DNA of 64,000 bases from Microbacterium sp. CPCC 204701 (lineage in GTDB: Bacteria > Actinomycetota > Actinomycetes > Actinomycetales > Microbacteriaceae), in the NCBI RefSeq assembly GCF_004010105.1, contig NZ_RRYE01000003.1, positions 1 through 64,000 on the forward strand. The letters run 5' to 3'. The position numbers and the translations under genes were made by a program. Below the pieces are notes generated by a model. It worked only from the letters and a program-made list of their open reading frames with translations, searched no databases and was not told where the DNA came from. Below are positions 3,457-22,134 of this stretch, in pieces. The number at the start of each line of letters is the position of its first letter. The first letter of the stretch is position 1.

Positions 3457-4164
3457 TCAGATTCCCAAGTAGGCGCGACGAACGTGGTCATTAGCGGCGA
3501 GGTCGGCTGCCGCCCCTTCGACGGTTACTCGGCCGGCTTCCAGGACGTACGCTCGGTCAGCGATGCTCAACGAGGCCGTGGCGTTCTGCTCCACGATCAG
3601 GAGCGCCGTGCCGAATTCGCTGTTTATGCGCTTCAGCTCCGCGAAGACGCTTTTCACCATGAGGGGAGCGAGTCCGAGCGACGGCTCATCCAGGAGGACG
3701 AGCTGCGGATTCCCTGCCATCGCCCTCGCGACCGCGAGGAGTTGCTGCTCACCGCCGCTCAGGCTTCCCGCCATCTGGTTGCGTCGTTCTCCAAGACGAG
3801 GGAAGACATCGAACCAGTGCGCGATGATCTCCTTGCGCTCTCGGCCAGATGCATGCGCGCCGGCCCAGAGGTTCTCGGCGACCGTGAGGTGAGACAACGT
3901 GCCGCGGCCCTGGGGCACATGAGCGAGCCCGGCGCGTGCCCGCTTGTACGGCGGGCGTCCGGAGAGCGACTGTCCGAGGAAGACGACCTCGCCGCGGGAC
4001 TTGAGGAGGCCGGAGATCGACCGGAGGAGGGTGGTCTTCCCTGCCCCATTCGCACCGAGGATCGCGACGGCTTCGCCACCCGAGACGGAGACGCTGATGT
4101 CCACCAGGACGTCGCCTGCACCGTATCCCGCATGAAGCCCCGAGACATTCAGGATTTCGCTCAT
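3457..4164 (-). CDS. ABC transporter ATP-binding protein, LivF type
   Basis: A 235-residue ABC ATPase. It has Walker A GANGAGKTTLL near residue 36, signature LSGGEQQLLAVARAMA, and Walker B LVLLDEPSLGLAPLMV, whose 'GLAP' is typical of LivF. The C-terminus ends in RRAYLGI, close to the conserved AYLG of the family. It powers the importer encoded by the same operon together with the LivG-type subunit. The ATG overlaps the upstream livG stop by 4 bp. Confidence 0.94.
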   Translation of the reverse strand: MSEILNVSGLHAGYGAGDVLVDISVSVSGGEAVAILGANGAGKTTLLRSISGLLKSRGEVVFLGQSLSGRPPYKRARAGLAHVPQGRGTLSHLTVAENLWAGAHASGRERKEIIAHWFDVFPRLGERRNQMAGSLSGGEQQLLAVARAMAGNPQLVLLDEPSLGLAPLMVKSVFAELKRINSEFGTALLIVEQNATASLSIADRAYVLEAGRVTVEGAAADLAANDHVRRAYLGI

Positions 4165-4925
4165 GCCGCCACCCCCAGGTAGGCCTCGATGACTTTCGGG
4201 TCGGATGACACTTCGCGCGGTGTGCCCTCCGCGATCTTCCGTCCGCCGTCCAAAACGATCACCGTCTCCGCCAGGGACATCACAAACCCCATGTGGTGCT
4301 CCACGAGGAGCACCGCAGTCTGAAAGTCGTCCCTTACGCGGCGGAGCAGCTGTGCGAGTTCGCCGATCTCGTTCTCGTTGAGGCCACCGACGGGCTCGTC
4401 AATGAGCAGAAGAGTCGGTTCCAGTAGGAGAGCGCGCGAGATCTCAGCACGCTTGAGAGTGCCGAACGACAATTCCTTCGGCTTCCGCTGGGCGGTGTCC
4501 AGCAGATCGAGCGCGTCCAAGGCGGCCAAAGCACGGTCGCGGAGACGCTTTTCTCGAGCGACCGACCACGGCAGCCGCAGCGTGTCCCCGAAGGAGCCGA
4601 GCCGGCGCGCGGTCGGATCGGCGATCATGAGGTTCTCCAGAACGGTGAGGCTGGGGACAAACGAGATGTTCTGGAATGTCCTGGCGATTCCGATCCGCGA
4701 AATCCTGTGCGCGGGGAGATGCAGGACAGATTCCTCCCCGTAGGTGATCGAACCGCTGTTGGGTGTGTACAGCCGGTTGATGCAGTTGAAGAGGCTGCTC
4801 TTGCCTGCGCCGTTGGGGCCGACGAGCGCGACCATCGCGCCGGCCGAGACCGTCATCGACACGTCCGTCAGCGCGTTTACGCCGCCGAACTTCAGGGTGA
4901 GGTCGGTGATCTGGAGATCTGGCAC
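4161..4925 (-). CDS. ABC transporter ATP-binding protein, LivG type
   Basis: First gene of the importer operon; about 254 residues. It has Walker A GPNGAGKSSLFN, the LivG-specific NCINRLYTP region, signature ELSFGTLKRAEISRALL (a degenerate LSxG), Walker B LLLIDEPVGGLNENE, and the C-terminal EAYLG. The start is placed at a GTG (4925) because AAAGGAG lies 7 nt upstream and the protein then begins PDLQITDLTLKFGG. A longer frame from a TTG at 4970 has no ribosome site and would run almost into the operator dyad at 4973-4989. That dyad lies 47 bp upstream, so the whole importer is probably under the TetR-family regulator at 5140. Confidence 0.92.
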   Translation of the reverse strand: MPDLQITDLTLKFGGVNALTDVSMTVSAGAMVALVGPNGAGKSSLFNCINRLYTPNSGSITYGEESVLHLPAHRISRIGIARTFQNISFVPSLTVLENLMIADPTARRLGSFGDTLRLPWSVAREKRLRDRALAALDALDLLDTAQRKPKELSFGTLKRAEISRALLLEPTLLLIDEPVGGLNENEIGELAQLLRRVRDDFQTAVLLVEHHMGFVMSLAETVIVLDGGRKIAEGTPREVSSDPKVIEAYLGVAA

Positions 4926-4972: not shown

Positions 4973-4989
4973 GTAGATCAGCATTCTAG
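4973..4989. promoter_or_regulatory. TAGA-N7-TCTA operator dyad in front of the importer operon
   Basis: GTAGATCAGCATTCTAG: arms TAGA and TCTA around 7 nt. Read on the other strand, the site at 8041 differs at only 2 of 17 positions. It lies 47 bp upstream of the livG start. It is assigned to the TetR-family protein at 5140-5736 by its recurrence in front of four catabolic units; this is inference. Confidence 0.72.
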
Positions 4990-5121
4990 TGAGGTCCAGC
5001 GATGGACCTGAAATGCCTTGGGCCCCGAGTCGTGTAACCTCATGGGATGCGGGCCGCGGCGATGGCACGGTGTTACGACACCCCGCACAGAGCCGCCCGT
5101 AGTCAGCCCCGAGGCCGACGT

Positions 5122-5138
5122 AGAGAACTGGGTTCTAG
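5122..5138. promoter_or_regulatory. Degenerate copy of the operator dyad
   Basis: AGAGAACTGGGTTCTAG carries one perfect arm (TCTA) and one imperfect arm (GAGA) at the correct 7-nt spacing. It directly abuts the tetR stop codon, about 200 bp upstream of livG. It may be an auxiliary site for the importer operon or chance. The rest of 4926-5139 shows no coding sequence. Confidence 0.3.
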
Positions 5139-5139
5139 T

Positions 5140-5736
5140 TCAGCGGTCGGCGTCGAGGCCCTGGACCGCCCACCGGATCTGACGTCGAGCTAGGTCAAGG
5201 CCATCCGCCATGCTCCTGCGGCCTACGAACCACTGAGTGAGCAGGTCCCACCACAGCGACTGGACGAGCTCGGAGAGGGCGAATGCGTCCGCCTCGGGGT
5301 AGCCGGGCATGCTGCGCACCAGCGCAAGCCTCGTGGTCCGCCTCAGCTCCGCCATGATCTCGCTGACGTATGGATCGCTGGAGACCGAGGACTGCACCAT
5401 CATCGCTAGCAGGTTGGGGTGGCGGAGGTACGCGTGGGTCCCGCGCCTGACGGTCGCGACGAGCTGCTCGTCGAGGCTCTGCTCCGGATCCGGGTCGGGA
5501 GTCCTGGCCGCAAGGGGCTCACCCCAATACGTGATCGCTGATGCGAACAGGTGCTCTTTCGAGGAGAAGAATCGGTAAATGGTGGCAAGGGCTATCCCCG
5601 ATTCGGTGGAGACCGACTTGACGCCGACCGCATCCACGCCGTCTCGATCGACGAGTTTGATAACGGCGTCGAGGATCAACTTCCGCTTCCGGAGTTGCAC
5701 CGGCGACATGGCCTCCACCGGCACGATCTCGTACAT
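5140..5736 (-). CDS. TetR-family transcriptional regulator
   Basis: About 198 residues. The N-terminal helix-turn-helix contains the TetR hallmark ALATIYRFFSSKEHLF (about residues 48-63 from the chosen start), followed by an all-helical ligand domain. The start at ATG 5736 avoids overlap with the acyl-CoA dehydrogenase gene 29 bp upstream; ATG 5709 is also possible, and a longer frame to 5835 would run into that gene. It is the third gene of the operon led by two acyl-CoA dehydrogenases, whose promoter carries an operator dyad, so autoregulation is likely. By analogy with KstR/KstR2 and FadR-type TetR proteins, an acyl-CoA intermediate could be the inducer; this is inference. Confidence 0.9.
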   Translation of the reverse strand: MYEIVPVEAMSPVQLRKRKLILDAVIKLVDRDGVDAVGVKSVSTESGIALATIYRFFSSKEHLFASAITYWGEPLAARTPDPDPEQSLDEQLVATVRRGTHAYLRHPNLLAMMVQSSVSSDPYVSEIMAELRRTTRLALVRSMPGYPEADAFALSELVQSLWWDLLTQWFVGRRSMADGLDLARRQIRWAVQGLDADR

Positions 5737-5765
5737 CGCTCCACCATAGCCGTGCGACGCGGGTG

Positions 5766-6845
5766 CTAAATCGACCCGCGCGCGATGAGCGCGTCGGCGA
5801 TCTCCACGCGATGGCGCGCCGCATCGCCCTCCCACGCCGAGAGCAGCATGGCGCGCTTCAACCAGCGATGGATCGGGTGATCCCAGGTCATCCCGATTCC
5901 GCCGAGCACTTGGATGGCCTGTTCCGCAGCGAAGACGGCAGCGCTGCCTGCCTGCGCTTTCGCTGCTCTCGCAAGCACGTAGTGCGTTGCCTCCGAGGCC
6001 ACCCCCGTCTCGACGGCCCAGGCTGATCGGTACGCGAGCGAGCGTGCGAGTTCGATCTCCTTGAAGACTTCGGACAACCGGTGCGACACACCTTGGTATG
6101 TGCCGATGATCTTGCCGAACTGCTCGCGCTCCTTCGCGTAAGCGACCGCGATGTCGAGGGCACGTCGCGCGACACCCACCGCCTCGCAGCTCAGCGCGGA
6201 AAGGACGCGGACGTGAAGCGCCGCGAGGTCCAGTCGATCGGTCACCAACCGCACTGGACGGGCGGTGACCCCATCGAGGTCGATCTCGAAGAGACGCCGG
6301 GTTCCGTCAAGCGACTGCAACGGCCGTCGCACGTCTGGACCAAGGGCCACCTCGCAGAGCAGGACGGCATCCCCTTGCCGCAACGGGACGAGCGCAACGT
6401 CTGCGTCCTGTGCGTCCGGAACGAGGATCTTCCTCCCGAACGCGATTCCGTCGGCCTGAATCTCCGCACGCGTGTCGACGATATCGAGGACCGAGGTGTT
6501 CCCGGCGTTCTCCGCCCACGCGAACGTCGCTCGCACCTCCCCGGCATCGATGCGGCGCGCGAGCGGATCGTCGTTCGAGAGCAGCGGGCGCACGAAGGCC
6601 GTCGTCATGAACCATGCGCCCGCAAGCAGGGCGTAGCCGGCCTCTTCAAACAGCACGGCCTGGTCTAGGAAGGAGAGGTCTGCGTCGAACCACCCCAGCC
6701 CTGCCAGTTCGTTCACCAAGTCCGGATTGCTGCCGCCCTCGCCGTCGGCGATCTCGGCCACCCGCGAGGGCGGAAGATTTGCTGCCAGGAACTCTCGCGC
6801 ATAGGCACGAAGCTCGCCTTGTTCTTCGCTGAAGGAGAAATCCAT
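5766..6845 (-). CDS. Acyl-CoA dehydrogenase, small/non-canonical subunit
   Basis: A 359-residue acyl-CoA dehydrogenase fold protein starting DFSFSEEQGELRAYAREFL. The C-terminal domain has REQFGKIIGTYQGVSHRLSE and QAIQVLGGIGMTWDHPIHRW, both conserved. The usual catalytic Glu motif (YEG or IEGG) is absent; the equivalent region reads AWEGDAARHR. It is encoded 9 bp behind the larger paralogue at 6855. Paired genes of this kind in actinobacteria encode alpha2beta2 heterotetramers (FadE28-FadE29 type) that oxidise bulky acyl-CoAs with FAD. Such a complex here is inference from pairing and complementary active-site residues. Confidence 0.9.
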   Translation of the reverse strand: MDFSFSEEQGELRAYAREFLAANLPPSRVAEIADGEGGSNPDLVNELAGLGWFDADLSFLDQAVLFEEAGYALLAGAWFMTTAFVRPLLSNDDPLARRIDAGEVRATFAWAENAGNTSVLDIVDTRAEIQADGIAFGRKILVPDAQDADVALVPLRQGDAVLLCEVALGPDVRRPLQSLDGTRRLFEIDLDGVTARPVRLVTDRLDLAALHVRVLSALSCEAVGVARRALDIAVAYAKEREQFGKIIGTYQGVSHRLSEVFKEIELARSLAYRSAWAVETGVASEATHYVLARAAKAQAGSAAVFAAEQAIQVLGGIGMTWDHPIHRWLKRAMLLSAWEGDAARHRVEIADALIARGSI

Positions 6846-6854
6846 TCGAGGTGC

Positions 6855-8021
6855 CTATCTGCTTCGGGGAAGGCCGAGTACTCGCTCGGCGATGACGTTC
6901 TTCAAGATTTCGGACGAGCCGCCCTCGATGGTGTTCGCTCGTGCTCGCAGTCGCTGCCCCTGCCAGAAGCCGTTGCTCCAGGCATCAGCACCGTCGAGCC
7001 CGCCCACGAGCCCCTGTGCATCCAGCGCCGCCTTCGTGAGCGCCTGATTGGCGTCGCTCCAGGTGAGCTTTGCAACGGAACTCTCCGGTCCGGGCACCCC
7101 ATCGACGTTCTTCGGATCGCTGAGCATCCGCATATTGGTGAACCGAAGGGCATGCAGACGAACCCACGCGTCGCCCAGGGCTTCCCGCAGTCGAGGATCC
7201 TCCGTGAGGTCACGCTCGACCAGGAAGTCGAAGAATGCCGACAGCTGCTTCTCGAGGCTGAGCGCCATTCCCATGGCGGCTGTGCCGCGCTCGTGTCTGA
7301 GCGTCGTCATGGCGACCTTCCATCCTTCGCCGCGTGCGCCGAGCATGCTGTCCCTCGGCACGCGAACGTCGTCGAAAAACATCTCGTTGAACTCCGGTAC
7401 GCCCGTGATCTGCGGCAATGGACGGACATCGATGCCCGGACTTTTCATGTCGACCAGGAGGAAGCTCAGTCCGAGGTGCTTCGGGGCGTGCGGCTCCGTA
7501 CGCACGACGAGGATGCAGCGGTCCGCCATGTGAGCGAACGACGACCACACCTTCTGACCGTTGACGACCCACTCATCGCCATCCAGGACAGCCTTGGTGC
7601 GCGCGCTTCCGAGGTCGGATCCCGCTCCCGGCTCGGAGAATCCCTGGCACCAGACCTCATCGCCTCGGAGAATCGCCGGAAGGTAAGTCGCCTTCTGCTC
7701 TTCCGTGCCCCAGTTGATGATCGTGGGCCCGGCGAAGCCAATGCCGATCACGTTCACGTGGTCGGGAGCATCGGCACGCGCGAGTTCCTCCAAGTAGATG
7801 TTCTGGTAGGACGGCGCGAGACCTCGCCCGCCGTACTCGACGGGCCAGGTGAGACCGACCCAGCCTGCGTCGGCGAGCTTGGCGCTCCACTCGCGCAGGA
7901 ACGTCTCGTCGTGCGCTGCGAAACCCTCGCGCTCGCGCCACTCGGTAGGGATGTTCGCTTCGAGCCACGACCTCAGCTCCAGCCGGAACCGCTGCTCATC
8001 CTCGGACTCCGTGAAATCCAT
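6855..8021 (-). CDS. Acyl-CoA dehydrogenase, catalytic subunit
   Basis: A 388-residue acyl-CoA dehydrogenase. It contains the FAD/substrate region WCQGFSEPGAGSDLGSARTK near residue 125, NGQKVWSSFAHMAD, and the C-terminal TIEGGSSEILKNVIAERVLG, whose Glu is the expected catalytic base. It introduces a C2-C3 double bond into an acyl-CoA and passes electrons to ETF. It is the first gene of the acdh-acdh-tetR operon; the operator dyad at 8041-8057 starts 19 bp upstream of its ATG. Likely partner of the 5766-6845 product. Confidence 0.93.
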   Translation of the reverse strand: MDFTESEDEQRFRLELRSWLEANIPTEWREREGFAAHDETFLREWSAKLADAGWVGLTWPVEYGGRGLAPSYQNIYLEELARADAPDHVNVIGIGFAGPTIINWGTEEQKATYLPAILRGDEVWCQGFSEPGAGSDLGSARTKAVLDGDEWVVNGQKVWSSFAHMADRCILVVRTEPHAPKHLGLSFLLVDMKSPGIDVRPLPQITGVPEFNEMFFDDVRVPRDSMLGARGEGWKVAMTTLRHERGTAAMGMALSLEKQLSAFFDFLVERDLTEDPRLREALGDAWVRLHALRFTNMRMLSDPKNVDGVPGPESSVAKLTWSDANQALTKAALDAQGLVGGLDGADAWSNGFWQGQRLRARANTIEGGSSEILKNVIAERVLGLPRSR

Positions 8022-8040
8022 TCCTATTACCGCCTCGTAA

Positions 8041-8057
8041 CTAGAACGCTGATCTAG
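8041..8057. promoter_or_regulatory. Perfect TAGA-N7-TCTA operator in front of the acyl-CoA dehydrogenase operon
   Basis: CTAGAACGCTGATCTAG has 5-bp perfect arms (CTAGA/TCTAG) around 7 nt. On the minus strand a TATACC -10-like hexamer (8062-8057) abuts it, which would place the dyad over the transcription start. That fits repression of the acdh-acdh-tetR operon. Confidence 0.78.
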
Positions 8058-8140
8058 GTATAGGTTTCACCGTAGCTCATGAAGCGACCTCGGCAAAGCT
8101 ACCAGACGAGCGTGATCGGTCACGTTGACATTGACGACGA

Positions 8141-8157
8141 GTAGAACGGGCATCTAG
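8141..8157. promoter_or_regulatory. TAGA-N7-TCTA operator in front of the crotonase operon
   Basis: GTAGAACGGGCATCTAG, same arms and spacing as the site 83 bp to the left, placed 54 bp upstream of the crotonase ATG. The 190-bp divergent intergenic region 8022-8211 therefore carries one dyad per promoter. Confidence 0.75.
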
Positions 8158-8211
8158 TGTTGGTGTGCCGGCAACGGTGAAGCAGCGTAGCTCAGCGAAT
8201 GGAGTCTCCTC

Positions 8212-9099
8212 ATGAGGACGTACGAGCAGATCCTGGTGGATCGCGTCGGAACGGACGGGCGGGTCGCCCGGATCACCTTAAACAACCCCGAGAAGCTCAA
8301 CATCCTCTCTCCTCAGATGGTCGCGGAACTGATGGACGCGCTCCGCGTCCTCGAGTCCGACATGACCGCACGGGTCATCATTCTCCGTGGCGCGGGAAGA
8401 GCGTTCAGCGCCGGGTGGGACCTCGGCAACCCCAACGTCGGCAACGAAGACCCGGCGTATACGGGCGGCGCCTACCCGATCTTCGACGGGGACGGTCGCC
8501 CGCTCGCCATGAACTTCGCCAACGGGCTGAAGCGCGGCGCCGAAGCGCAGCTTTACATGTGGAGCATGGCCAAGGTGACGATCGCGCAAGTTCACGGGTT
8601 CTGCATCGCCGGGGGTCTTGAGTGGGCAGCGATGGCCGACCTCGCGACCGCATCCAAGGACTGCATCATCGGGCACCCCGGGAGCCGCGGCCTAGGAGTC
8701 GCTCGCAACGCCGCACTTCTCCCGCTCGTCACGAGTTGGCGCAAGGCGAAGGAACTGCTTCTTACCGGTGACTCGGTTTCGGGTGAGCAGGCGGCGGAAC
8801 TAGGCATCGTCAACTACGCGTGGGACGAGGAGGAGCTCGACAGCCGCACGATCGCCCTCGCGGATCGGGTTGCGAACATGTCCGCCGACCACCTCGCCGT
8901 CACAAAGGCGGCCGCGAACAGGTTCGTCGAAAACATGGGCGTGCGGTCGTCGATCGCCTCGGCCACCGAACTCGACGCACTCGGACAGAACACCGTCGCG
9001 AATCATGCTTGGACCGACAAGCTCCGGAACGAAGGCCTGAAGGCCGCTCTGGAGTGGCGCGACAAGCCGTACGGCGACTATGGTTTCCGCCCGCGGTGA
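8212..9099 (+). CDS. Enoyl-CoA hydratase/isomerase-family protein (atypical active site)
   Basis: A 295-residue crotonase-fold protein. It has oxyanion-hole segments GAGRAFSAGWDLG (about 61-72) and HGFCIAGGLEWAAMAD (128-143). The first catalytic Glu of hydratases (rat Glu144) is kept as Glu137, but the second (Glu164, in QPE) is replaced: the sequence there reads GHPGSRG, with Gly157 at that place. It also carries an insertion of about 20 residues around 80-100. It may therefore be an isomerase, hydrolase or lyase rather than a plain hydratase. First gene of a three-gene operon downstream of an operator dyad. Confidence 0.88.
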   Translation: MRTYEQILVDRVGTDGRVARITLNNPEKLNILSPQMVAELMDALRVLESDMTARVIILRGAGRAFSAGWDLGNPNVGNEDPAYTGGAYPIFDGDGRPLAMNFANGLKRGAEAQLYMWSMAKVTIAQVHGFCIAGGLEWAAMADLATASKDCIIGHPGSRGLGVARNAALLPLVTSWRKAKELLLTGDSVSGEQAAELGIVNYAWDEEELDSRTIALADRVANMSADHLAVTKAAANRFVENMGVRSSIASATELDALGQNTVANHAWTDKLRNEGLKAALEWRDKPYGDYGFRPR

Positions 9100-10183
9100 C
9101 GCGCTGCCTCCGCTGAGAGCCACGAGCCTCGTGCGCCCGTCGGATCTGCAGGAGTTCGGCGCCTGGAGTCGGAGGTCCATCCCCGACGTCTCACGCGTCG
9201 CGGAGCACGTCTGGTCGATCCCCGTCCCGGCGCCAGGGTTGCCGATTCGCTACACGCTCTGCTACGCGGTCCGTCGCGCGAAATCCTGGGTGGTCGTCGA
9301 CCCCGGCCTCTCCAGCCCGCAGGGCTGGGATGCCCTTGTGGAGGGGCTGTCGCGCGCGGGGGCGACGATGACATCCGTGCGCGGAATAGTCGGAACCCAC
9401 GCACACCCCGATCATGTCGGACAGGTAGGACGACTGCAGGAGCTGACTGGAGCCTGGTTCGCACTCGGAGACGGCGAGGTGATTCCCGTGCGTGATGGAG
9501 CGGACGCCGCCGCACGCGACGACGCGCTTCTCAGAGCCTGGGGGGTACCGGACGGATTACGCGACGCTCTGAACACCTATCGGTCGCCGGAGGCGATAGC
9601 GTCGGTGGTTCCTCCGGTGGACATCTTTCTCCAGGACGGCGATGTACTTCCCGATGTGGGCCTGATCACGGTCTCCACGCCCGGCCACACTCCCGGCCAT
9701 GTGTGCTTCATCGACGAACGGTCGGATGCTGTCTTCACCGGAGACCATGTTCTCCCGAGAATCTCGCCCCATGTATCCGTCTGGACTGACGGCCTCACCG
9801 ACCCGCTGAAACGCTACCGCGCTTCGCTGCGCCACTTGCTGTCGAGGCCGGCATCCCTCGTACTTCCCGGCCATGAGTACCGATTCGAGGGACTGAGCCA
9901 GCGGGTCGAGGAGCTGGACCACGCACTCATCCGAAGGAACGCCGAGGTGGCCGCGGTCGCACACGAGTCCGAAGCAACGGATGTGTGGGGCCTTGCACCC
10001 CTGATCAGGTGGTCCCGCGGCTGGGATTCACTTCACGGTCTGACCCGGCGGCTAGCCCTGTCCGAATGCGCCAGCCACGTGGAGTACGCGAACGGCGTCA
10101 ACGCGATGACAGGACGAATTGCGACCCGCCCTCGTTCTGAAGCGGGCCAGCGGGATGCGCTCCTCAGCCGGGACGGGTCGTGA
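9080..10183 (+). CDS. Metallo-beta-lactamase-fold hydrolase
   Basis: A 367-residue MBL-fold protein. The metal-binding motif THAHPDH is at 106-112 (His107, His109, Asp111, His112), followed by TPGHTPGH and TGDHVLP ligands. A C-terminal helical extension after the MBL domain ends near the HADH overlap. The start used overlaps the crotonase stop by 20 bp; a GTG near 9137 would avoid this. It is a clear paralogue of the protein at 62236: both share a WSIPVP/WVIPVP opening, a DPG motif and the same ligands. In CoA-type catabolic operons such enzymes often hydrolyse thioesters or lactones; the substrate here is unknown. Confidence 0.85.
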   Translation: MVSARGDALPPLRATSLVRPSDLQEFGAWSRRSIPDVSRVAEHVWSIPVPAPGLPIRYTLCYAVRRAKSWVVVDPGLSSPQGWDALVEGLSRAGATMTSVRGIVGTHAHPDHVGQVGRLQELTGAWFALGDGEVIPVRDGADAAARDDALLRAWGVPDGLRDALNTYRSPEAIASVVPPVDIFLQDGDVLPDVGLITVSTPGHTPGHVCFIDERSDAVFTGDHVLPRISPHVSVWTDGLTDPLKRYRASLRHLLSRPASLVLPGHEYRFEGLSQRVEELDHALIRRNAEVAAVAHESEATDVWGLAPLIRWSRGWDSLHGLTRRLALSECASHVEYANGVNAMTGRIATRPRSEAGQRDALLSRDGS

Positions 10184-11037
10184 CGATGTTCGATCGAGTC
10201 GGGGTCATCGGACTGGGTCTCATGGGAAGTGGGATAGCCGAGGTGGCGGCGACGGCAGGCTGCCAGGTAGTGGCGATCGAGTTCGATCAGTCCCGCCTTG
10301 CCCGGGGGACGGGGAGGATCGACGCGTCCCTGGAAAAGGCCCTGGCACGCGGCCGGATCGATTCGTCAGCGGTCGATGCTGCGCGCGGTCGGATCCGGGG
10401 CGCGACGGACTTGAATGCTCTAGCCGATTGCGACCTGATCATCGAGGCGGCGACGGAGCTTCTCGACGCCAAGCTTGCGATCTTCCGCACGCTGGGAGCG
10501 GTGAGCCGACCCGACGCGGTCTTGGCATCGAACACATCGTCTATCCCGCTCACTGATCTCGCCGCTGTGGCCGACCGCCCGGAGCGTGTGGTGGGGCTGC
10601 ACTTCTTCAACCCTGCTCCCGTTATGGCGCTCGTGGAGGTGGTGTCCGCGGTACAGACCGATCCGGCCATCGCCGATGCGGTCGCGGACTTCGCTCGCAA
10701 CCGGCTTGGGAAGACACCGATCGTCTCACCCGACCGGGCGGGGTTCGTCGTGAACGCCCTGCTGATCCCGTACCTGCTGTCCGCATTTCGAATGCTGGAT
10801 TCAGGCAGGGCGACGGCCGAAGACATCGACACGGGCATGCGGCTGGGATGCGGGCACCCGCTTGGGCCCCTGGAGCTGAGCGACTTCGTCGGGCTCGACG
10901 TGGTGGCGGCCGCCGCAGAGTCCATGCACCGCGAGTACGCCGACGACGCCTACGCCGTCCCACCGCTGCTCCGAAGGCTCGTCGGGTCAGGGCGATTGGG
11001 GCGCAAGAGCGGGCGTGGAGTTCTCGACTATCAATAG
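10180..11037 (+). CDS. 3-hydroxyacyl-CoA dehydrogenase
   Basis: A 285-residue protein of the HbdH/FadB2 family. It has Rossmann motif GLGLMGSG near the N-terminus, ASNTSSIPLT with the substrate Ser, GLHFFNPAPVM with the catalytic His, and VVNALLIPYL with the catalytic Asn. It oxidises (3S)-hydroxyacyl-CoA to 3-ketoacyl-CoA with NAD(P)+, following the crotonase step. The GTG start overlaps the upstream stop as GTGA, suggesting coupling; ATG 10186 is an alternative. Last gene of the operon, converging on the meta-cleavage operon 121 bp away. Confidence 0.93.
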   Translation: MTMFDRVGVIGLGLMGSGIAEVAATAGCQVVAIEFDQSRLARGTGRIDASLEKALARGRIDSSAVDAARGRIRGATDLNALADCDLIIEAATELLDAKLAIFRTLGAVSRPDAVLASNTSSIPLTDLAAVADRPERVVGLHFFNPAPVMALVEVVSAVQTDPAIADAVADFARNRLGKTPIVSPDRAGFVVNALLIPYLLSAFRMLDSGRATAEDIDTGMRLGCGHPLGPLELSDFVGLDVVAAAAESMHREYADDAYAVPPLLRRLVGSGRLGRKSGRGVLDYQ

Positions 11038-11158
11038 GGCGATCGAACGCCAGCGCGACCCGCTCACGGTCTGACCAGCACGTTGGGACTGTCTGCTAGC
11101 TCGCGGCGCGGGGGCTGACGCGCGAACGGTGCCCGCACGGCGCTTGACTCGGCCTTGG

Positions 11159-12586
11159 TCAAAGCTGGACGATCACCGCTTTCGGCTCGGTGAAGAACTC
11201 GCGGCTGAAGGCGCCACCCTCACGGCCGATGCCGGAGTCGCCGGCACCGCCGAAGGGTGCACGAAGATCCCGGATGAAGAAGCAGTTGACCCACACACTG
11301 CCCGCTTTCAGCAGCGCCGCAACACGATGGGCCCGGCTGAGGTCGGTCGTAAACACCATCGCGTTCAGGCCGTAGGGTGTGTCATTCGCAAAGGCCACCG
11401 CTTCACCCTCCGTCTGGAATTCCGAGAGCGTCACGACCGGGCCAAAAATCTCCTCGCGCATCACCCGAGCGTTCGGGCCGGCGCCGGTGACGACGGTTGG
11501 AGCCACGGACCATCCGGCACCTCGGCCCCCTGTGACGATCTTCCCGCCGTCTTCGGCCACCGTGTCCAGGTACGACGACACCTTCTTGAAGTGTGCCTCG
11601 GACGAGAGGGGCCCGAGTTGAGTCGCCGGATCCTTAGGGTCGCCGAACCGCATGGCTTCGGACTTCTCGACGAACCGGGCGAGGAAATCTGGATAGATCC
11701 CGGACTGCACGTACAGCCGACTTCCTGCCAAGCACACCTGCCCCGTGTTCGTGAAGATGGCGCGCATGGACCAGTCGACGGCGTTGTCCAGATCGGCATC
11801 GTCGAACACGATGTTCGCGCCCTTCCCGCCGAGCTCGAGGGAGACGCCCGCAAGGTTCCCTCCCGCCGCTCGAGCGATGGTCCGCCCGGTGGCCGATTCG
11901 CCTGTGAACGTAACCCGATCCACGCGGCGGTCGGCGGTGAGCGCTTCACCCGCAGATGAGGGACCGAACCCCTGCACAACGTTCAAGACGCCGGGCGGAA
12001 GACCGGCTTCGAGGGCCAGCCGTCCGAGGATGGTGCCGCTCACGGGGGAATGCTCAGAGGGCTTCAAGATGACCGTGTTTCCCCAGGCGAGAGCCGGCGC
12101 CACCTTCCATGTCGCCATCATGAGTGGGAAGTTCCACGGCGCGATTGCCGCCACGACGCCGGCCGGCTCGTACCGGCTGTACGCGTGGAAGCCGTCACCC
12201 ATCGGGTAGCTCTCAGCAGTGGCCAACCGGGCGTGGTCTGCGAAGAAGCGGAAATTCATCGCGCTCCGAGGGATGTCGTTGCCGACGCTCTGCGCGATCG
12301 GCTTGCCCATGTCATGAGTATCGGCCAATCCCAGTTCTTCGCCGTTCGCCTCGATGAGGTCCGCGATTCGATGCAGAATCTGCCCGCGTTCCACCGAGCT
12401 CATCCTTGGCCACGGGCCCTCGTCGAAGGCGGTTCGGGCTGCATGGACAGCGCGCTCGGCGTCCGGCGCGGAGCCGAGCGCGACGTCCGCCCAGCTCTGA
12501 CGAGTCCACGGATCGACCGTGGGGAAGCGCTTCCCGTCCACTGAGTCGACCTCTACTCCGCCGATGACGTGCCCGTATCGATTCAT
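11159..12586 (-). CDS. 2-hydroxymuconic semialdehyde dehydrogenase (aldehyde dehydrogenase family)
   Basis: A 475-residue NAD-dependent aldehyde dehydrogenase. The catalytic Cys is in NTGQVCLAGSR (Cys285) and the general base Glu in SLELGGKGAN (Glu251); FTGES and APWNFPLMMA are NAD/active-site motifs. As the last gene of a catechol meta-cleavage operon it most likely oxidises 2-hydroxymuconate 6-semialdehyde to 2-hydroxymuconate (oxalocrotonate branch; XylG/DmpC role). The adjacent 4-oxalocrotonate decarboxylase and the tautomerase gene support this branch. Its ATG overlaps the upstream stop by 4 bp. Confidence 0.9.
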   Translation of the reverse strand: MNRYGHVIGGVEVDSVDGKRFPTVDPWTRQSWADVALGSAPDAERAVHAARTAFDEGPWPRMSSVERGQILHRIADLIEANGEELGLADTHDMGKPIAQSVGNDIPRSAMNFRFFADHARLATAESYPMGDGFHAYSRYEPAGVVAAIAPWNFPLMMATWKVAPALAWGNTVILKPSEHSPVSGTILGRLALEAGLPPGVLNVVQGFGPSSAGEALTADRRVDRVTFTGESATGRTIARAAGGNLAGVSLELGGKGANIVFDDADLDNAVDWSMRAIFTNTGQVCLAGSRLYVQSGIYPDFLARFVEKSEAMRFGDPKDPATQLGPLSSEAHFKKVSSYLDTVAEDGGKIVTGGRGAGWSVAPTVVTGAGPNARVMREEIFGPVVTLSEFQTEGEAVAFANDTPYGLNAMVFTTDLSRAHRVAALLKAGSVWVNCFFIRDLRAPFGGAGDSGIGREGGAFSREFFTEPKAVIVQL

Positions 12587-13374
12587 GACGCACCTCCTGA
12601 AACTCGTACCTCTACGGAGCCGAGACGACCAAACCGCGCCGCCACCGCAACCCCCGCCCGCAACGGGATCGCGTCGGTCATCCCGCCGGTCAGCACGATG
12701 GATCCGCGAGGCACTGCGAGGCCTTGCTCGGCAAGCGCGTTCACAGCCCAGGCGAGCGCCTCGCCGGGGTGGCCGTACACAGCCGCACCGGTCGCGCTGT
12801 CCACCACGATCCCCGCTTCGGTCAAGAGAACTGGCTCGAAAAAAAGATCGACGTCATTCGGCCGGAGCCCTACGGGGCTGATGACGAAGCCGCCCGACGA
12901 CGAGTTGTCCGCGATTGTGTCCTCGATGCGGAACTGGAAGTCGGTGTACCGGCTGTCGATGATCTCCACGGCTGCGTGGACCCGTTCGACGGCTGAGAGC
13001 GCCTGCTCCGGAGTCACTCTTCCGCGGAGTTCTCTGCCGAGGACGAACGCGATCTCCGGCTCAGCCCGGGGGTGAATGAATCCGGAGGCGGCCACGGGCT
13101 CATTCAGCCGGAGCCGCATCGCATCGGTCAGCCACGAGACCGTCGGCGAATCGATCCCCATCGTCGTTTGTTTAGCCCGAGACGTGAGACCGAGCTTGAT
13201 CCCCACAACCGACTCGCCGCGGGCCACCCGCATGCGCAGCGTCTCACGTTGTACGGCGTACGCGTCCGCTTCGGACATGTTTGGCCACGCGACGGTGAGC
13301 TGAGGAAGCGGCCGCCCACTCCGCTCCGCCTCTAGGAGAATGCCGGCGGCCTTGGCGACGTCTGACGCGTTCAT
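12583..13374 (-). CDS. 4-oxalocrotonate decarboxylase (FAH/hydratase-decarboxylase family)
   Basis: A 263-residue member of the 2-oxopentenoate hydratase/oxalocrotonate decarboxylase family. It has [11 protein letters not shown], the metal-binding [13 protein letters not shown] and [20 protein letters not shown]. The 'DSRYxxFxF' version resembles decarboxylases (XylI/DmpH), while its paralogue at 15339 has '[18 protein letters not shown]' like hydratases (MhpD/XylJ). It would convert 2-oxo-3-hexenedioate to 2-hydroxypenta-2,4-dienoate. Mg2+ dependence is known for the family. ATGA overlaps join it to both neighbours. Confidence 0.85.
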
Positions 13375-14405
13375 CGGGCGCGGCTCCGCTCCGCGGACAG
13401 TTGCAGCGCCACATCGATGATCATGTCCTCCTGTCCTCCCACGTAGCCGAGTTCACCGACTTTCCGCAGGATCTCGTGAGGAGGCACGCCATACCGCGCG
13501 CCCGCGCGCTCGGCGTGGAGAAGGAAGCTGGAGTAGACACCGGCATAACCTTGGATGATCGAGGACCGATCCATCTTCGGCCAGCGACGGATGTAGTCGG
13601 CCACGATGTCGTCCGCGGCACCGAGCACGCCGTCGAGGTCGACGCCCGTGCGCACGCCCAGCTTGTCGAAAACCGCCGTCAGCACCTCCGTGGGCGAATT
13701 GCCGGCGCCCGCTCCAAGCGCGTAGAGGGTGCCATCGATCTGGCGGGCACCGGCGCGGTAGGCCAGGATCGAGTTCGCCACTCCCAGCGACAGATTCTGA
13801 TGACCGTGGAAGCCGACCTGCGCGTCGACACCGAGCTCGGCGACAACGGCCGCCACCCGGTCTGCGGCATCGTCGAGGATGAGGGCGCCGGCTGAGTCGA
13901 CAACATACACGCATTGGCATCCAGCGTCGGCCATGATCCTCGCCTGCCGCGCGAGGATCTCCGGCGCCACCGAATGCGACATCATCAGGAAGCCCACGGT
14001 CTCGAGCCCGAGGTCACGAGCAAGTCCGAAGTGCTGGATGGAGACATCGGCCTCGGTGCAATGCGTCGCGACCCGAAGCACCGATACCCCCGCATCACTC
14101 GCCCACTTCACATCGTCGAACGTGCCGACTCCCGGTACGAGGAGGCACGCGATCTTCGACGAGCTCGCTTCTTCCACGGCCGCGGCGATGAGGATCTTCT
14201 CGTCCGTTCCAGAGAATCCGTAATTGAACGAGGATCCGCCCAAGCCCTCGCCATGCGAGACCTCGATGACTGGGACCCCTGCCCCGTTCAAGGCTCGCAC
14301 CGTGTCACGTATGTTCTCCTCCGTGAATTGATGTGACATCGCATGACTGCCGTCGCGAAGCGTCGTGTCGGTAAGCCGTACGTCGATGCTCGGAGAACTC
14401 AACAC
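13371..14405 (-). CDS. 4-hydroxy-2-oxovalerate aldolase
   Basis: About 344 residues, normal for this family (DmpG/MhpE/BphI). The HMGL-like TIM barrel opens with [14 protein letters not shown] (substrate Arg/Asp), followed by [16 protein letters not shown] and the metal-binding GFHGHQNL His pair. It cleaves 4-hydroxy-2-oxovalerate to pyruvate and acetaldehyde and normally forms a channelling complex with the acylating dehydrogenase encoded next to it. The start is GTG 14405 (or TTG 14402) behind AAGGAG. A longer frame to 14567 is rejected because it would overlap the dehydrogenase gene by about 170 bp. Confidence 0.95.
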
Positions 14406-15316
14406 ACGACTCCTTCGTTCGGCGAAACCAGAATGCGGCGGGCCACCAGCTCGCCGACTTGTGCGGCGGCGGCCGTCATGATGTCGAGATTGCCCGCGTA
14501 CTCCGGCAGGTAGTCTCCATTGCCCGCCACCCGGAGGAAGACGGCGACTCTGCCACGACCGCCCCATTCCTCACGGGGATCGTCGAACTGGGGTTCAGTG
14601 ACGAGTTCGTACCCCGGCACGTACCGTTGGACGTCGCGGACCGCACGCTTGATCGATGCGGTCACAGCATCCTGATCGGTCCCCGGCTCCAGCGAACAGT
14701 AGACGGTGTCACGCATGATCATCGGCGGGTCGACAGGGTTGAGGATGACCACCGCCTTGCCTCGTTGCGCTCCTCCCACGCGCTCGACGGCAAGTGACGT
14801 CGTATGCGTGAACTCATCGATGTTCGCGCGGGTGCCGGGTCCTGCGGACCGCGACGAGATGGATGCGACGATCTCGGCGTACGCGACCGGTGTCACACGC
14901 GATACCGCGTCCACGATCGGAATCGTGGCCTGACCCCCGCACGTGATCATGTTGATGTTCTGCGCAGCCAGGTGCTCGTCGATGTTGACCGCCGGTGACA
15001 CATAGGGCCCGATGGCGGCAGGAGTCAGGTCGACCGCGACGATGCCGGCATCGCGATACTTGTCGGCGTTGGCTTCGTGCGCTCGCGCCGAGGTCGCTTC
15101 GAACACGATTCGAGGGCGCGGCTCCTGTGCGAGGAGCCAGTCGACGCCGTCCGCGGACGCGTTGAGGCCGGCTTCACGGGCTCGGCGGAGGCCGTCCGAC
15201 GAGGGGTCGACTCCCACCATGTAGCGGAGATCGATCAGCTCGCTCCGTCGCAGTTTGACCATCAGATCGGTGCCTATGTTCCCGGGTCCCACGATCGCTG
15301 CGATCACCTTGTCCAT
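14399..15316 (-). CDS. Acetaldehyde dehydrogenase (acylating)
   Basis: A 305-residue protein of the DmpF/MhpF/BphJ family. It has Rossmann motif GPGNIGTD at 10-17, [13 protein letters not shown], and catalytic Cys126 in [12 protein letters not shown]. It converts acetaldehyde, NAD+ and CoA to acetyl-CoA. The ATG at 15316 has AAAGGAG 5 nt upstream, so the longer frame to 15355 is not used. The gene overlaps the aldolase start by 7 bp, consistent with co-production of the channelling pair. Confidence 0.96.
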
Positions 15317-15338
15317 GTCTTCTCCTTTGGTGTGGCAA

Positions 15339-16118
15339 TCACGCGAAGACCGCACTGACGTGTCCGAGGCCCGCGACCTGCAGATGAAAACTGCATCCGC
15401 GTGTGACAGGGACAGCCTTGGTCATCGACCCCGGAAGCACGACCGATCCCGCCGCGAGCGACTCGCCGAATCCACCCAGCGTGTTCGCAAGCCACACGAG
15501 TGAGTTCAACGGGCCTCCGAGAACCGCACCGCCCGCTCCCGTTCCGACGATTTCGCCGTCGCGAGTGAGCACCGCACCCGCGAACGCCAGATCCACCTCG
15601 CGCAAAAGACGTGGACGCTGCCCCACCACGAACCCACCCGAGGAGGCGTTGTCCGCGACGGTGTCCACGATTCCGATCCGCCAGTTCGCGATCCGGGAGT
15701 CGATGATCTCCAACGCCGGGAGGACATAGTCGACGGCGGAGATCGCCTGCGCGAGCGTCACCCCAGGTCCGCTTAGGCCGCGACCGAGCACCAGCGCGAT
15801 CTCTGGTTCGATCCGGGGCTGGAGAAAACCTGCCGTGATCGGCGCCTCGTCCGTGAATGCCATCGACTGGGTCAGATGACCGAAGTCCGGACGGTCGACG
15901 CGCATCTGACGCTGCATAGCGCGGGAGCTCAGCCCGACCTTGTGGCCGACGATGCGGTCGCCGTCGGCCACCCACCTCCCGACCTGGATCATCTGTACCT
16001 GGTAAGCATCCTCCACGGTGAAATCGGGAAAGTCGGCGGAAAGCGGCGACGTCGCCTGCCCAGACCGGTAAGCCTCGAGCAGTCGAGCGGCGGCGGATTC
16101 GTGCGCTGACGATGTCAT
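15339..16118 (-). CDS. 2-hydroxypenta-2,4-dienoate hydratase
   Basis: A 259-residue paralogue of 12583-13374. It has [27 protein letters not shown] (metal ligands), and [20 protein letters not shown], closely resembling MhpD-type hydratases. [14 protein letters not shown] also matches that group. It adds water to 2-hydroxypentadienoate, giving 4-hydroxy-2-oxovalerate for the aldolase. Sits between the dioxygenase and acetaldehyde dehydrogenase genes with 14- and 22-bp gaps. Confidence 0.92.
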
Positions 16119-16132
16119 ATCCGGCTCACCCG

Positions 16133-17194
16133 TCAGTTGATGCTTTCGGTCACCGGAAGCTTCACGAACTCAGGGTCGAGCTTCCGCACCCGGCTGGGTA
16201 CGTTCGAGGGCGCCAGCAGGCTCTTCTGGTCAGGCAGCGGCGGAGTCCCGTAGATGAAGTATGTCTCGGCGGGCAGCTTTGCGCCGCCGATCGCGAGGCC
16301 GGTGTCGAAGTCGGCGAGATCCCACGTCACCGTCTCGAAGTCGGGCTCGAGCTCGAGGATGCCGGAGTTGCCGAACAATTCGATCCGGTTGCCGCCAGGC
16401 TCAAAGACGTAGAGGAAGGCTCCTTGGGTGATCCCGTGGACGTCGGGGCCGGTTTCGATCTCGATCCCGTACTCGCGGCATAGCTCCGCCGCATCGGTGT
16501 TGTGCTGCGGCACGCCGTACCAGAAAGCGAGGTGATGGAGCCGGCCCTTCGCCCCCGTCATGTCACGCATGATCGCCAGCTCGTGCCCCAGGATGTTGAC
16601 GCTCATCCACGCCCCGATCTCGGTGTCCGTCGTGAAGTCCACGACGCGCTCGCGCGTCTCGAAGCCGAGTGCCGACTCGAATACGTCTTTCTGCACCGTG
16701 ACGTCGGATGCCATCAGATTGACGTGGTCGAGTCGGCGGGGCGGCATACCTTGGAGAGGGCGCTTCGAGCGCCGGGTCAGGATCCTGCTACGAAGATCCT
16801 CCGGCGCCTGATACTTCTCCACATCCCAGATGATCTCCATCTGGTGCCCGTCGGGGCTCTCGAAGCCCCAGGTTCGGCCGACCCCGAGATCGCCGCTCTT
16901 CCACCCCGTTCCAAGACCGGCCTTGTCGAGCGCGTCGGCACGACGTTCCAGCGCTTCACGGGAGGTCGCGCGCCAGGCCATGGAACCGAGGCCGGGTTCG
17001 TCCGCTGCCGTCAGTTTGAGACTGTGATGATAGGGGTCCTCGTAGCACCGGAGGTAGACGGAGTCTTCCTGCCGAGCGACCTCGCGCATTCCGAGCAGCT
17101 CCTTGAAGAACCACAGACTGCCCTCCATGTTCGGTGTCAGCAGCTCGACGTTCGCGAGGTGGGCTAGTTCGTGTCGTGGGTGACTTTGGATCAT
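16133..17194 (-). CDS. Catechol 2,3-dioxygenase (type I extradiol, two-domain VOC fold)
   Basis: A 353-residue vicinal-oxygen-chelate protein with two repeats. The Fe(II) ligands fall in the second domain: His157 (LDHVNL), His220/221 (RLHHLAFW) and Glu271 (NRIELFG). It opens the aromatic ring next to the diol to give 2-hydroxymuconic semialdehyde. The presence of the semialdehyde dehydrogenase, tautomerase and decarboxylase genes makes catechol or an alkylcatechol the likely substrate. The start ATG 17194 has GAGGAG 6 nt upstream; a frame extending to 17422 overlaps the tautomerase gene and is rejected. Confidence 0.93.
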   Translation of the reverse strand: MIQSHPRHELAHLANVELLTPNMEGSLWFFKELLGMREVARQEDSVYLRCYEDPYHHSLKLTAADEPGLGSMAWRATSREALERRADALDKAGLGTGWKSGDLGVGRTWGFESPDGHQMEIIWDVEKYQAPEDLRSRILTRRSKRPLQGMPPRRLDHVNLMASDVTVQKDVFESALGFETRERVVDFTTDTEIGAWMSVNILGHELAIMRDMTGAKGRLHHLAFWYGVPQHNTDAAELCREYGIEIETGPDVHGITQGAFLYVFEPGGNRIELFGNSGILELEPDFETVTWDLADFDTGLAIGGAKLPAETYFIYGTPPLPDQKSLLAPSNVPSRVRKLDPEFVKLPVTESIN

Positions 17195-17243
17195 GGTTGA
17201 CTCCTCTTCGAGTGATAGCGCGTGTGAATCGTGCGTGTGCCGC

Positions 17244-17438
17244 TCAGCGGTCGGTGACTGCGGCGGACGGAACGCCGCCGACTCCCCAAGCGGTCGCGGG
17301 AAACTGGGTGATGTAGGTCCGCACGCTGTCGAGAGGCACTTCGACGATCTCTGACACCACTGTCGCGAGACGCCGGTGCAATTCTTCGATCTGAGCAGGC
17401 GTGCGTCCTTCTTTGAGGTCAACTCTCACAAGAGGCAA
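17244..17438 (-). CDS. 4-oxalocrotonate tautomerase family protein
   Basis: A 64-residue tautomerase. After Met removal it starts with the catalytic Pro1 (PLVRVDLKEGR) and keeps Arg11 and Arg39 (SVRTYI); Trp50 occupies the Phe50 place. It isomerises 2-hydroxymuconate to 2-oxo-3-hexenedioate in the oxalocrotonate branch. The start is a TTG with GGAGG 10 nt upstream. First gene of the meta-cleavage operon, 49 bp ahead of the dioxygenase. Confidence 0.92.
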   Translation of the reverse strand: MPLVRVDLKEGRTPAQIEELHRRLATVVSEIVEVPLDSVRTYITQFPATAWGVGGVPSAAVTDR

Positions 17439-17748
17439 GGTCGTGCGTCCTCCCTATCCGCGGCGCGAGTCAGCCCGGAGAACGATGTTTCAATCGGGCA
17501 TTCGATTCGTCGACTTGTTTGGACCGTACGCGCTACCGGAGCCCTCGAACCGACGCGTCCGGAATAGCAGAACGGTGGCGATTGCCAGGAGAACACCATG
17601 TGCGTACGGGTTCGGATGAGAGGAACTCGTTTCCTGATCGTTCTAAGTAGATTAGGGTTCTATTACATGCAGAGCCGGCAGGCCGTCGCGACGTCGCGCT
17701 GATCAGCCGATACGGACGGCCGCCGCCACCAGTTGAGGACTGACACTG
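17439..17748. other. Divergent intergenic region between the meta-cleavage operon and iclR
   Basis: 310 bp without a convincing gene. It holds the operator dyad at 17647-17663, 208 bp from the tautomerase start and 85 bp from the iclR start. The long distance to the tautomerase gene implies a leader of up to about 200 nt or a promoter well upstream. No riboswitch-like or terminator-like fold was obvious. Confidence 0.6.
17647..17663. promoter_or_regulatory. TAGA-N7-TCTA operator near the meta-cleavage operon promoter
   Basis: GTAGATTAGGGTTCTAT, fourth copy of the dyad (arms TAGA/TCTA, 7-nt spacer). It links the ring-cleavage operon to the TetR regulon of the importer and beta-oxidation operons. 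It could also act on the divergent iclR gene. Confidence 0.68.
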
Positions 17749-18525
17749 ATGTTAGGAACCGTGAATCGCGTGGGATCCGTCTTGGACCTATTCACCCAGG
17801 AAGAGCCGGAATGGGGCACCACCCGCCTCGCTCGTCGTCTCGGCTTGGCGAAGTCGCAGGCGCACGAGATCTTGGTCAGCATGACCGCGATCGGACTGCT
17901 ACAGCGGACTCCCGGGGCCCGCTATCGCCTCGGCTGGCGAACCGTTCGACTCGGCGCGGTGGCGATGCGCAACGAGGGGCTCGCCACTGTAGCCGCCCCG
18001 TGGATGCGACGCCTCGTCGGCATTCATCCCGAGCTCTCCGCCCATCTCGCCGTCTGGGATCTCGACCGCGCGATCTTCGTTGGCCGCCAAGTCGGGCGGG
18101 AAGTCGACTCTGAAGTCGCGCAGACTTCCGCTGCCGGCAGTGAGGCTCCGATTCACTGCACCAGTCTCGGAAAGGTGCTCGCAGCGGCGCAGAGTGACGC
18201 ACGCATCGACCAGACGCTGGCGAACGCTTCGCTGGATCGTTTCACCGATGAGACGATCACGGGAATCACGGCGCTCCGCGATGAGCTCGCGCGCGTCCGC
18301 GAGCGCGGTTTCGCGACGGATCTCGGCGAGCTCAGCGACCGCATGACCTGCATGGCCGTCCCGATCTCGCACGACGACCAGGTGGTCGCAGCACTCGGCG
18401 TCGTACTGCCGCGTCGTGAGTGGCAGCCCGGGGCCGATCGATATCTGAGGACCGTTCGTGAGATGTCGACATCGATCTCCCGGAGCCTCAGGGTCTACAA
18501 CCGTACCGCGGCCGTACCCGCGTGA
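17749..18525 (+). CDS. IclR-family transcriptional regulator (lactonase operon)
   Basis: A 258-residue IclR protein. The N-terminal winged helix has recognition segment LGLAKSQAHEILVSM (about 31-45), and the C-terminal effector domain includes CTSLGKVLAA. Its recognition helix differs from the KSTAHRLL shared by the other three IclR proteins in the window, so it should read a different operator. It heads the plus-strand lactonase/ABC operon and is the probable regulator of it. The start ATG has GAGGA 9 nt upstream. Confidence 0.92.
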   Translation: MLGTVNRVGSVLDLFTQEEPEWGTTRLARRLGLAKSQAHEILVSMTAIGLLQRTPGARYRLGWRTVRLGAVAMRNEGLATVAAPWMRRLVGIHPELSAHLAVWDLDRAIFVGRQVGREVDSEVAQTSAAGSEAPIHCTSLGKVLAAAQSDARIDQTLANASLDRFTDETITGITALRDELARVRERGFATDLGELSDRMTCMAVPISHDDQVVAALGVVLPRREWQPGADRYLRTVREMSTSISRSLRVYNRTAAVPA

Positions 18526-18620
18526 TCATGTTGGGCGGGCTGCGCTGACCCCGCGGCGTCCACGCGGCGAGCGTGGCGCCGCCGGCCTGACGGTGAGCTA
18601 CGTCGTGGTCACGGACGCGC

Positions 18621-18637
18621 GTTCGGCATACGCGAAC
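18621..18637. promoter_or_regulatory. Candidate IclR operator upstream of the first lactonase
   Basis: GTTCGGCATACGCGAAC is a dyad with 5-bp arms GTTCG/CGAAC and a 7-nt spacer, about 100 bp upstream of the lactonase ATG. It lies in the 212-bp gap 18526-18737, which has no gene. Assignment to the IclR at 17749 is inference. Confidence 0.4.
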
Positions 18638-19748: not shown

Positions 19749-19767
19749 CACAGCCCCGATCGCCGCG

Positions 19768-21148: not shown

Positions 21149-21152
21149 TCCT

Positions 21153-22133: not shown

Positions 22134-22134
22134 C

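Follow-up and report, generated by a model that had tools for sequence, protein, structure and literature searches.

The described systems that bear most directly on the locus analysed here are those of the TetR-family repressors KstR and KstR2. KstR leaves DNA on binding an acyl-coenzyme A (acyl-CoA) intermediate, and KstR2 is a TetR protein that controls acyl-CoA genes, with operator arms CAAG...CTTG. The KstR box, as given in the accessible text of its description, is TAGAAC-N2-GTTCTA (Nx standing for a stretch of x arbitrary bases) and partly overlaps a -10 region (PMC1995591). Here we consider a stretch of 64,000 nucleotides from Microbacterium sp. CPCC 204701 (positions 1 to 64,000 of contig NZ_RRYE01000003.1), referred to throughout as the window, which carries a tetR gene, several catabolic operons and five dyads built from KstR-like half-sites. 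The reading that we consider likely, judging from sequence, is that the KstR-like TetR protein encoded in the window jointly controls these operons and further units on a second contig of the same genome, C490, through a 15-base-pair (bp) operator with a 3-bp middle.

A dyad nearly exclusive to two loci

The pattern TAGANNNNNNNTCTA occurs at exactly four places in the window (operators 1-4 of Table 1, each counted from the first T of the dyad), against a mean of 0.07 in 100 shuffled windows, none of which reached four. Thus, the four dyads with TAGA and TCTA arms reported in a preliminary description of this DNA are indeed present at the places given, except that one flanking base had been counted and the first T lies one position later in each case. 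A fifth copy, which had been described as degenerate and abutting the tetR stop codon, is likewise there but proves to be near-consensus once it is properly aligned (operator 5). Alignment of seven sites, the five in the window and two on C490, yields 14 half-sites in which TAGA is found 13 times, followed by A or T in all 14 and then by C or T in 13, the half-sites being separated by 3 bp in every one of the seven. Operator 4 fits the strict consensus exactly, and operator 3 deviates from the refined consensus, TAGAWYNNNRWTCTA, by one mismatch. Across 200 windows resampled from a Markov model, refined sites numbered 0.175 on average and 2 at most, compared with 5 in the real window.

Across the genome (3.62 Mb in 641 contigs), the bare arms TAGA-N7-TCTA are found at seven places, namely the four in the window, two on C490 and one on contig C157 that does not fit the refined consensus, and the reversed control also yields seven, so that by this control the bare arms are not enriched and a better description of the site is needed. 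When the spacer is varied from 2 to 14, however, 21 places are found, seven of them at N7 and 14 at the other 12 spacings together, one of these 14 being operator 5 in an N9 reading. The reversed pattern occurs at 216 places over the same range of spacers; reversed arms are thus commoner in this genome, which makes the reversed pattern a poor null and the comparison of spacings the fairer control. With at most one mismatch to TAGAWYNNNRWTCTA, eight places are recovered, as opposed to three for the reversed control. Of the eight, five belong to the window, two to C490 and one to contig C54. The outcome that the preliminary description had named as speaking against it, many dyads at unrelated loci, was not observed, since seven of the eight near-consensus sites fall in just two loci. 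The one-mismatch place on C54, near flavin reductase-like and ATP-binding cassette (ABC) transporter-like genes by visual inspection, was treated as a chance occurrence. The count of refined sites is partly circular because the consensus was built from six of the sites that it then recovers; the spacing control and the evidence from other genomes are less so.

One of the two C490 sites lies between genes for an enoyl-CoA hydratase and a divergent ADP-forming-type acyl-CoA ligase, the latter followed by an Amidohydro_2 protein (hereafter the amidohydrolase), and the other lies upstream of an ArsR-like gene that is followed by a thiolase gene with a broken frame. The acyl-CoA ligase, the amidohydrolase and the thiolase are all missing from the operons of the window; that C490 supplies both the ligase and the thiolase fits a single pathway split between the two loci. 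The thiolase (6385-7571 of the C490 region, locus L008) is in two pieces in different frames, which might reflect a pseudogene or an assembly error. Furthermore, a partial solute-binding protein at 12062-12709 of the same region is 82% identical over 211 residues to the one encoded at 207-1469 of the window, and since this gene runs off the end of the contig, a second uptake operon may follow. The second amidohydrolase seen in another genome (locus L074, below) was not found in the own genome, an empty result that shows little in this test.

The regulator and its relatives in other genomes

The regulator belongs to the TetR family by its TetR_N score, for which the curated cut-off is 24 bits. 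Its best NCBIfam model is that of KstR (NF033703), at 69.8 bits, far under the equivalogue cut-off of 280 and so not indicative of a KstR equivalogue, and its nearest solved relatives are KstR structures, the best match in PDB being 5aqc. On sequence comparison, the window TetR is a distant paralogue of KstR, and the preliminary description, which had adopted KstR2 as the model, needs adjusting here: among relatives found by sequence KstR comes closest, and the dyads amount to KstR-type boxes whose half-sites stand one base further apart, all seven sites being N3 and none the 14-bp N2 box. An AlphaFold model of TetR alone, with a predicted local distance difference test (pLDDT) score of 43, was not used.

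No orthologue of this TetR was found in 298 genomes of the genus and order, where the next best match after the own genome is 29% identical (E 1.3e-13). The G+C content is 64-65% across positions 1-36000 of the window and 67-69% across 44001-64000; the lower G+C content and the absence of an orthologue from the sampled relatives suggest that the left part of the window may have been acquired. Among 394 genomes of the class (the own genome included), the nine best foreign TetR places are 31-37% identical, and 5 of 396 genomes of the phylum (again with the own genome) matched at E 1e-20 or better. A scan of genome contigs with TetR alone returned only distant TetR proteins, at 12 loci with a top identity of 41% over 63 residues, and the search of plasmids returned only weak TetR matches, in 8 records. 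From around some of the listed matches, 24 regions (8 + 16) were fetched, of which 21 (L062-L082) were scored as homologous loci and three (L083-L085) served as KstR-like controls, the KstR model being run on L083 only among these.

The gene content of these loci provides a connection that does not depend on the dyads. In 14 of the 21 loci, the regulator lies near an amidohydrolase that is 51-57% identical to the C490 protein, and this pairing links the window regulator to C490 without recourse to the operators. In 12 of the 21, matches to both acyl-CoA dehydrogenases are also nearby, in the cases looked at as one fused protein of about 735 residues or a longer open frame. The own genome shows the same set of genes, with the dehydrogenase pair beside tetR and the amidohydrolase on C490, linked by the operator. 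One locus, L074, holds within the same 20 kb five matching ABC genes, which are 38-53% identical, as compared with 26% for the other LivH of the window. Sites resembling the dyad precede its amidohydrolase (10/12), its livG (9/12) and a second amidohydrolase (9/12), where 0.91 sites of at least 9/12 are expected in 20 kb; scores here and below are out of the 12 half-site bases.

In the 400 bp that precede tetR or the amidohydrolase, the 21 loci together have 12 sites scoring 10/12 or better at N3 (in 11 of the 21 loci), 6 at N4, 1 at N2, 1 at N9 and none at six other spacings, some of the N4 calls being second readings of an N3 site. Anywhere in the loci, N3 sites number 15, as against 3 for the reversed pattern, and N2 sites 7, as against 14. 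The same 15-bp arrangement with a 3-bp middle is seen in the sites of the own genome. A sequence taken from these clusters, TAGAAC-N3-GTTTCA, occurs once per genome, at the cluster, in all five genomes searched, four of which are of one genus and share the same sequence; of its reversed control, a single copy was found, in one of these genomes. The positive control L083, whose TetR passes the KstR cut-off at 328.3 bits (four TetR proteins of the amidohydrolase-linked group or related to it score 77-128), is preceded by the 14-bp KstR box in perfect form; L083 and L065 both belong to genome G299. Taken together, the regulator, its operator tag and the genes look, from these comparisons, like a conserved module.

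Several observations weigh against this reading. Ten of the 21 loci lack an N3 site of at least 10/12 near tetR or the amidohydrolase (L064, L068, L069, L072, L073, L075, L076, L080, L081 and L082); among these, L075, L076 and L082 have N4 readings of similar sequence, L080 can be read at N2, and in L069 two N3 sites lie at a greater distance, upstream of the gene preceding its amidohydrolase. Several of the homologous loci are near-copies of each other, and in L074 no such site precedes tetR itself, the best score there being 7/12. L094, which is from another class of the phylum, carries at 7466 a perfect TAGAACGCGTTCTA, a 14-bp N2 box, upstream of an acd1-amidohydrolase-tetR cluster, and in L095 both the amidohydrolase match and the N3 site are missing; judging from these two loci, regulators of this kind do not all use one spacing. 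Identity between the window TetR and its homologues is only 27-37%, and the tree sets the window protein beside the group with weak support (83/44) and on a long branch. In the window, a sigma-70 promoter scan of three intergenic regions gave no promoter-like match. As a separate observation, L081 (genome G350) looks, on its sequence, like an ordinary KstR regulon: the 20 kb surrounding its KstR-like TetR contain four KstR-type boxes with N2 spacing that score 10/12 or better.

Alternatives and a proposed mechanism

Could the dyads be explained in other ways? A serious, if doubtful, alternative is that TetR controls uptake and the acyl-CoA steps only, with operator 4 serving iclR and the meta-cleavage operon being under IclR or regulated otherwise. 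Operator 4 is indeed nearer to the start of iclR (87 bp) than to that of the first meta gene, encoding the 4-oxalocrotonate tautomerase (210 bp), which also counts against joint control as we propose it. When the dioxygenase, the semialdehyde dehydrogenase and the DmpE-, DmpF-, DmpG- and DmpH-like proteins were used as queries (the tautomerase was not), only the dehydrogenase was matched near the regulators in 24 + 2 loci, at 38% in L080 and L084 and at 35% in L095. However, one operator between divergent genes can serve both iclR and the meta operon, and this operator is the exact fit to the strict consensus. The preliminary description had placed each of its sites at a different catabolic unit and had put import, chain shortening and ring cleavage under one regulator. 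The former stands for three sites, and the latter is borne out as far as several operons are concerned, with two additional sites on C490 and the conserved module in its favour, whereas its ring-cleavage part depends on the one site that is nearer to the divergent iclR.

We find it improbable that the dyads belong to another regulator, whether the IclR protein encoded from 17749, the ArsR-like protein of C490 or a true KstR. The iclR and ArsR-like genes each adjoin a dyad, but homologous operators are present at tetR-amidohydrolase clusters elsewhere, where the window IclR is unmatched at E 1e-10 (the ArsR-like protein was not searched there, and one open reading frame about 8 kb from tetR in L065 is IclR-like by eye). 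The half-site is that of KstR, and since the next-best TetR relative in the own genome is at E 2.1e-5, that is, no other close one exists, a true KstR is an unlikely user of the dyads. That they are chance palindromes in the AT-rich promoter stretches of a GC-rich genome is hardly credible: the parity of the bare arms with their reversed control would agree with chance, but the spike at N7, the excess of refined sites and their concentration at two loci, the Markov null and the conservation in other genomes all argue to the contrary.

Returning to joint control by the KstR-like TetR, the following chain of events can be envisaged. TetR would bind as a dimer to two TAGA(A/T)(C/T) half-sites 3 bp apart and would hold off at least four units in the window, namely the livG-type uptake operon, acd1-acd2-tetR, ech-mbl-hbdh and one or both of the divergent units at 17648, as well as, on C490, the ArsR-like and thiolase unit and the divergent enoyl-CoA hydratase and acyl-CoA ligase-amidohydrolase units. 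In three of the window units the sites lie 21-56 bp from the starts, and the repressor would most likely sit on or beside the core promoter. As the preliminary description had noted, tetR lies inside one of the controlled operons; being the third gene behind operator 2, it would put TetR under its own control. We infer that an acyl-CoA intermediate of the pathway probably releases TetR, in which case import, CoA activation, beta-oxidation-like shortening and perhaps ring cleavage would start together; in other words, TetR probably switches on the genes for import, activation and breakdown of some acid at the same time.

A broader possibility, which we advance tentatively and judge conceivable though short of probable, is that a group of KstR paralogues reads the KstR half-site, but with its two copies one base further apart. 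Where a KstR with a 14-bp box and such a paralogue with a 15-bp operator coexist, as in G299, spacing alone would then keep their regulons separate. This group would govern a CoA-dependent pathway marked by the amidohydrolase and a two-part acyl-CoA dehydrogenase, which in the present genome would be distributed between two loci, with the operator as the link between them. Searches of a collection of open-access papers found no description of this KstR-paralogue group or of the module.

The genes considered here are listed in Table 1. The dmp-type catechol meta-cleavage operon has all seven expected genes, four of them scoring below the equivalogue cut-offs and the tautomerase recognized by Pfam only. 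Beyond it, positions 17749-27830 contain iclR, a phosphotriesterase-like gene, a second branched-chain-type ABC transporter, a second phosphotriesterase-like gene and a gene for a TIM-barrel-like protein; this is a separate catabolic unit.

Table 1. Operators and genes in the left part of the window
Feature	Coordinates	Strand	Sequence, context or supporting match
Operator 1	4974..4988		TAGATCAGCATTCTA; upstream of livG operon, 49 bp from likely GTG start
Operator 5	5123..5137		GAGAACTGGGTTCTA; between tetR and livG, one mismatch from TAGAWYNNNRWTCTA, ends 2 bp before tetR stop codon
Operator 2	8042..8056		TAGAACGCTGATCTA; upstream of acd1-acd2-tetR, 21 bp from acd1 ATG at 8021
Operator 3	8142..8156		TAGAACGGGCATCTA; upstream of ech-mbl-hbdh, 56 bp from ech ATG at 8212
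Operator 4	17648..17662		TAGATTAGGGTTCTA; between meta operon and divergent iclR
ABC solute-binding protein, livJ type	207..1469	-	Peripla_BP_6 177.3 bits; 38% identical to L074 protein
ABC permease, livM type	1512..2564	-	47% match in L074
ABC permease, livH type	2561..3454	-	53% identical to L074 LivH; 26% to the other LivH of the window
ABC ATPase, livF type	3457..4164	-	52% match in L074
ABC ATPase, livG type	4161..4925	-	likely GTG start at 4925; 47% match in L074
TetR-family repressor, KstR-like	5140..5736	-	TetR_N 35.5 bits, TetR_C_20 30.8 bits, both over cut-off
Acyl-CoA dehydrogenase second subunit, acd2	5766..6845	-	Acyl-CoA_dh_1 96.5 bits; pimD/IpdE2-like, below cut-offs
Acyl-CoA dehydrogenase, acd1	6855..8021	-	three Acyl-CoA_dh domains; pimC-like 258.6 bits, below cut-off
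Enoyl-CoA hydratase, ech	8212..9099	+	ECH_1 126.6 bits
Metallo-beta-lactamase (MBL)-fold hydrolase, mbl	9164..10183	+	Lactamase_B 88.5 bits; start codon uncertain
3-hydroxyacyl-CoA dehydrogenase, hbdh	10180..11037	+	PRK07819 376 bits, over cut-off 319
2-hydroxymuconic semialdehyde dehydrogenase-like	11159..12586	-	HpaE 521, OH_muco_semi_DH 511 bits, both below cut-off
2-oxo-3-hexenedioate decarboxylase-like, dmpH	12583..13374	-	219.9 bits, below cut-off
4-hydroxy-2-oxovalerate aldolase	13371..14390	-	468.5 bits, over cut-off
Acetaldehyde dehydrogenase (acylating)	14399..15319	-	440.2 bits, over cut-off
2-oxopent-4-enoate hydratase-like, dmpE	15339..16118	-	265.1 bits, below cut-off
Catechol 2,3-dioxygenase	16133..17194	-	catechol_2_3 302.3 bits, just below cut-off 320.2; best PDB relatives 7q2a, 3lm4
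4-oxalocrotonate tautomerase-like, first meta-operon gene	17244..17438	-	TTG start; Tautomerase 37.2 bits, over cut-off 22
IclR-family regulator, possible alternative target of operator 4	17749..18525	+	IclR_C 109 bits

The substrate and comparison with described systems

So what acid might this module serve? The preliminary description favoured an aromatic acid with an acyl side chain that ends as catechol, a proposal that, as it stands, is conjectural. No match to the alpha subunit of ring-hydroxylating oxygenases (PF00848) was found in the own genome, a test in which 4 of 14 controls were positive and which leaves flavin-dependent and other monooxygenases aside, and no ring hydroxylase is among the genes annotated beside the seven sites. 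Catechol would be the end point only if operator 4 acts on the meta operon. We favour, by inference, an acid that carries a ring and has its side chain shortened in the form of a CoA thioester; the acd1-acd2 pair resembles pimeloyl-CoA and IpdE2-type enzymes, at scores below cut-off. Among plasmids, 142 records matched the amidohydrolase query, of which three were opened. Two are from sphingomonads, to which Caenibius tardaugens is related, and show the amidohydrolase beside CoA-ligase-type and Rieske-type genes, with a dehydrogenase pair nearby in one of them; the third, a Mycobacterium branderi plasmid record, combines an amidohydrolase match with enoyl-CoA hydratase-like genes and a thiolase.

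If this interpretation holds, its implications would be threefold. The KstR-like group of repressors would gain a predicted operator with a predicted gene set, and there would be an initial test of one way, a one-base change in spacing, in which closely related TetR repressors might be kept off each other's operators. Furthermore, the amidohydrolase-family enzyme that stands beside acyl-CoA dehydrogenases in several actinobacteria and on a sphingomonad plasmid would gain an assignable regulon, and the search for its substrate would be narrowed.

Among described gene sets, the bsd I bile-salt cluster of Caenibius tardaugens comprises, in the accessible text, a TetR, an induced amidohydrolase, a two-subunit acyl-CoA dehydrogenase and a CoA ligase (PMC12882949); it is thus like the present set by description only, and bile salts are the substrates there. 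An amidohydrolase is also mentioned among cholesterol-responsive genes in the part of PMC9782250 that is accessible. A piperine amidohydrolase, the model of which is compared with PuhB in the portion of text available (PMC12753220), was not used, and the Lcin1 lithocholate motif of Nocardioides, as presented in the available part of PMC7593942, is a different palindrome. The KstR3 regulator of the HBC operon in Mycolicibacterium neoaurum is likewise a TetR-family protein and, as far as the accessible text goes, negatively regulates a small operon concerned with sterol side chains; it differs in that its operon encodes an aldolase, a DUF35 protein and a reductase, that text giving no operator sequence, and the likeness is by description only (PMC10398937). 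KstR2 is set apart, also by description only, by operator arms that differ from the TAGA dyads found here. The closest comparison remains that with KstR (Rv3574 / MSMEG_6042), a TetR repressor that is the nearest in sequence among solved structures and for which the accessible text describes TAGAAC half-sites, control of lipid catabolism and self-repression (PMC1995591), features that are seen or predicted here as well; the present regulator nevertheless differs from it in sequence, well short of the KstR cut-off, in its gene set, and in an operator of 15 bp with a 3-bp middle in place of 14 bp with 2.

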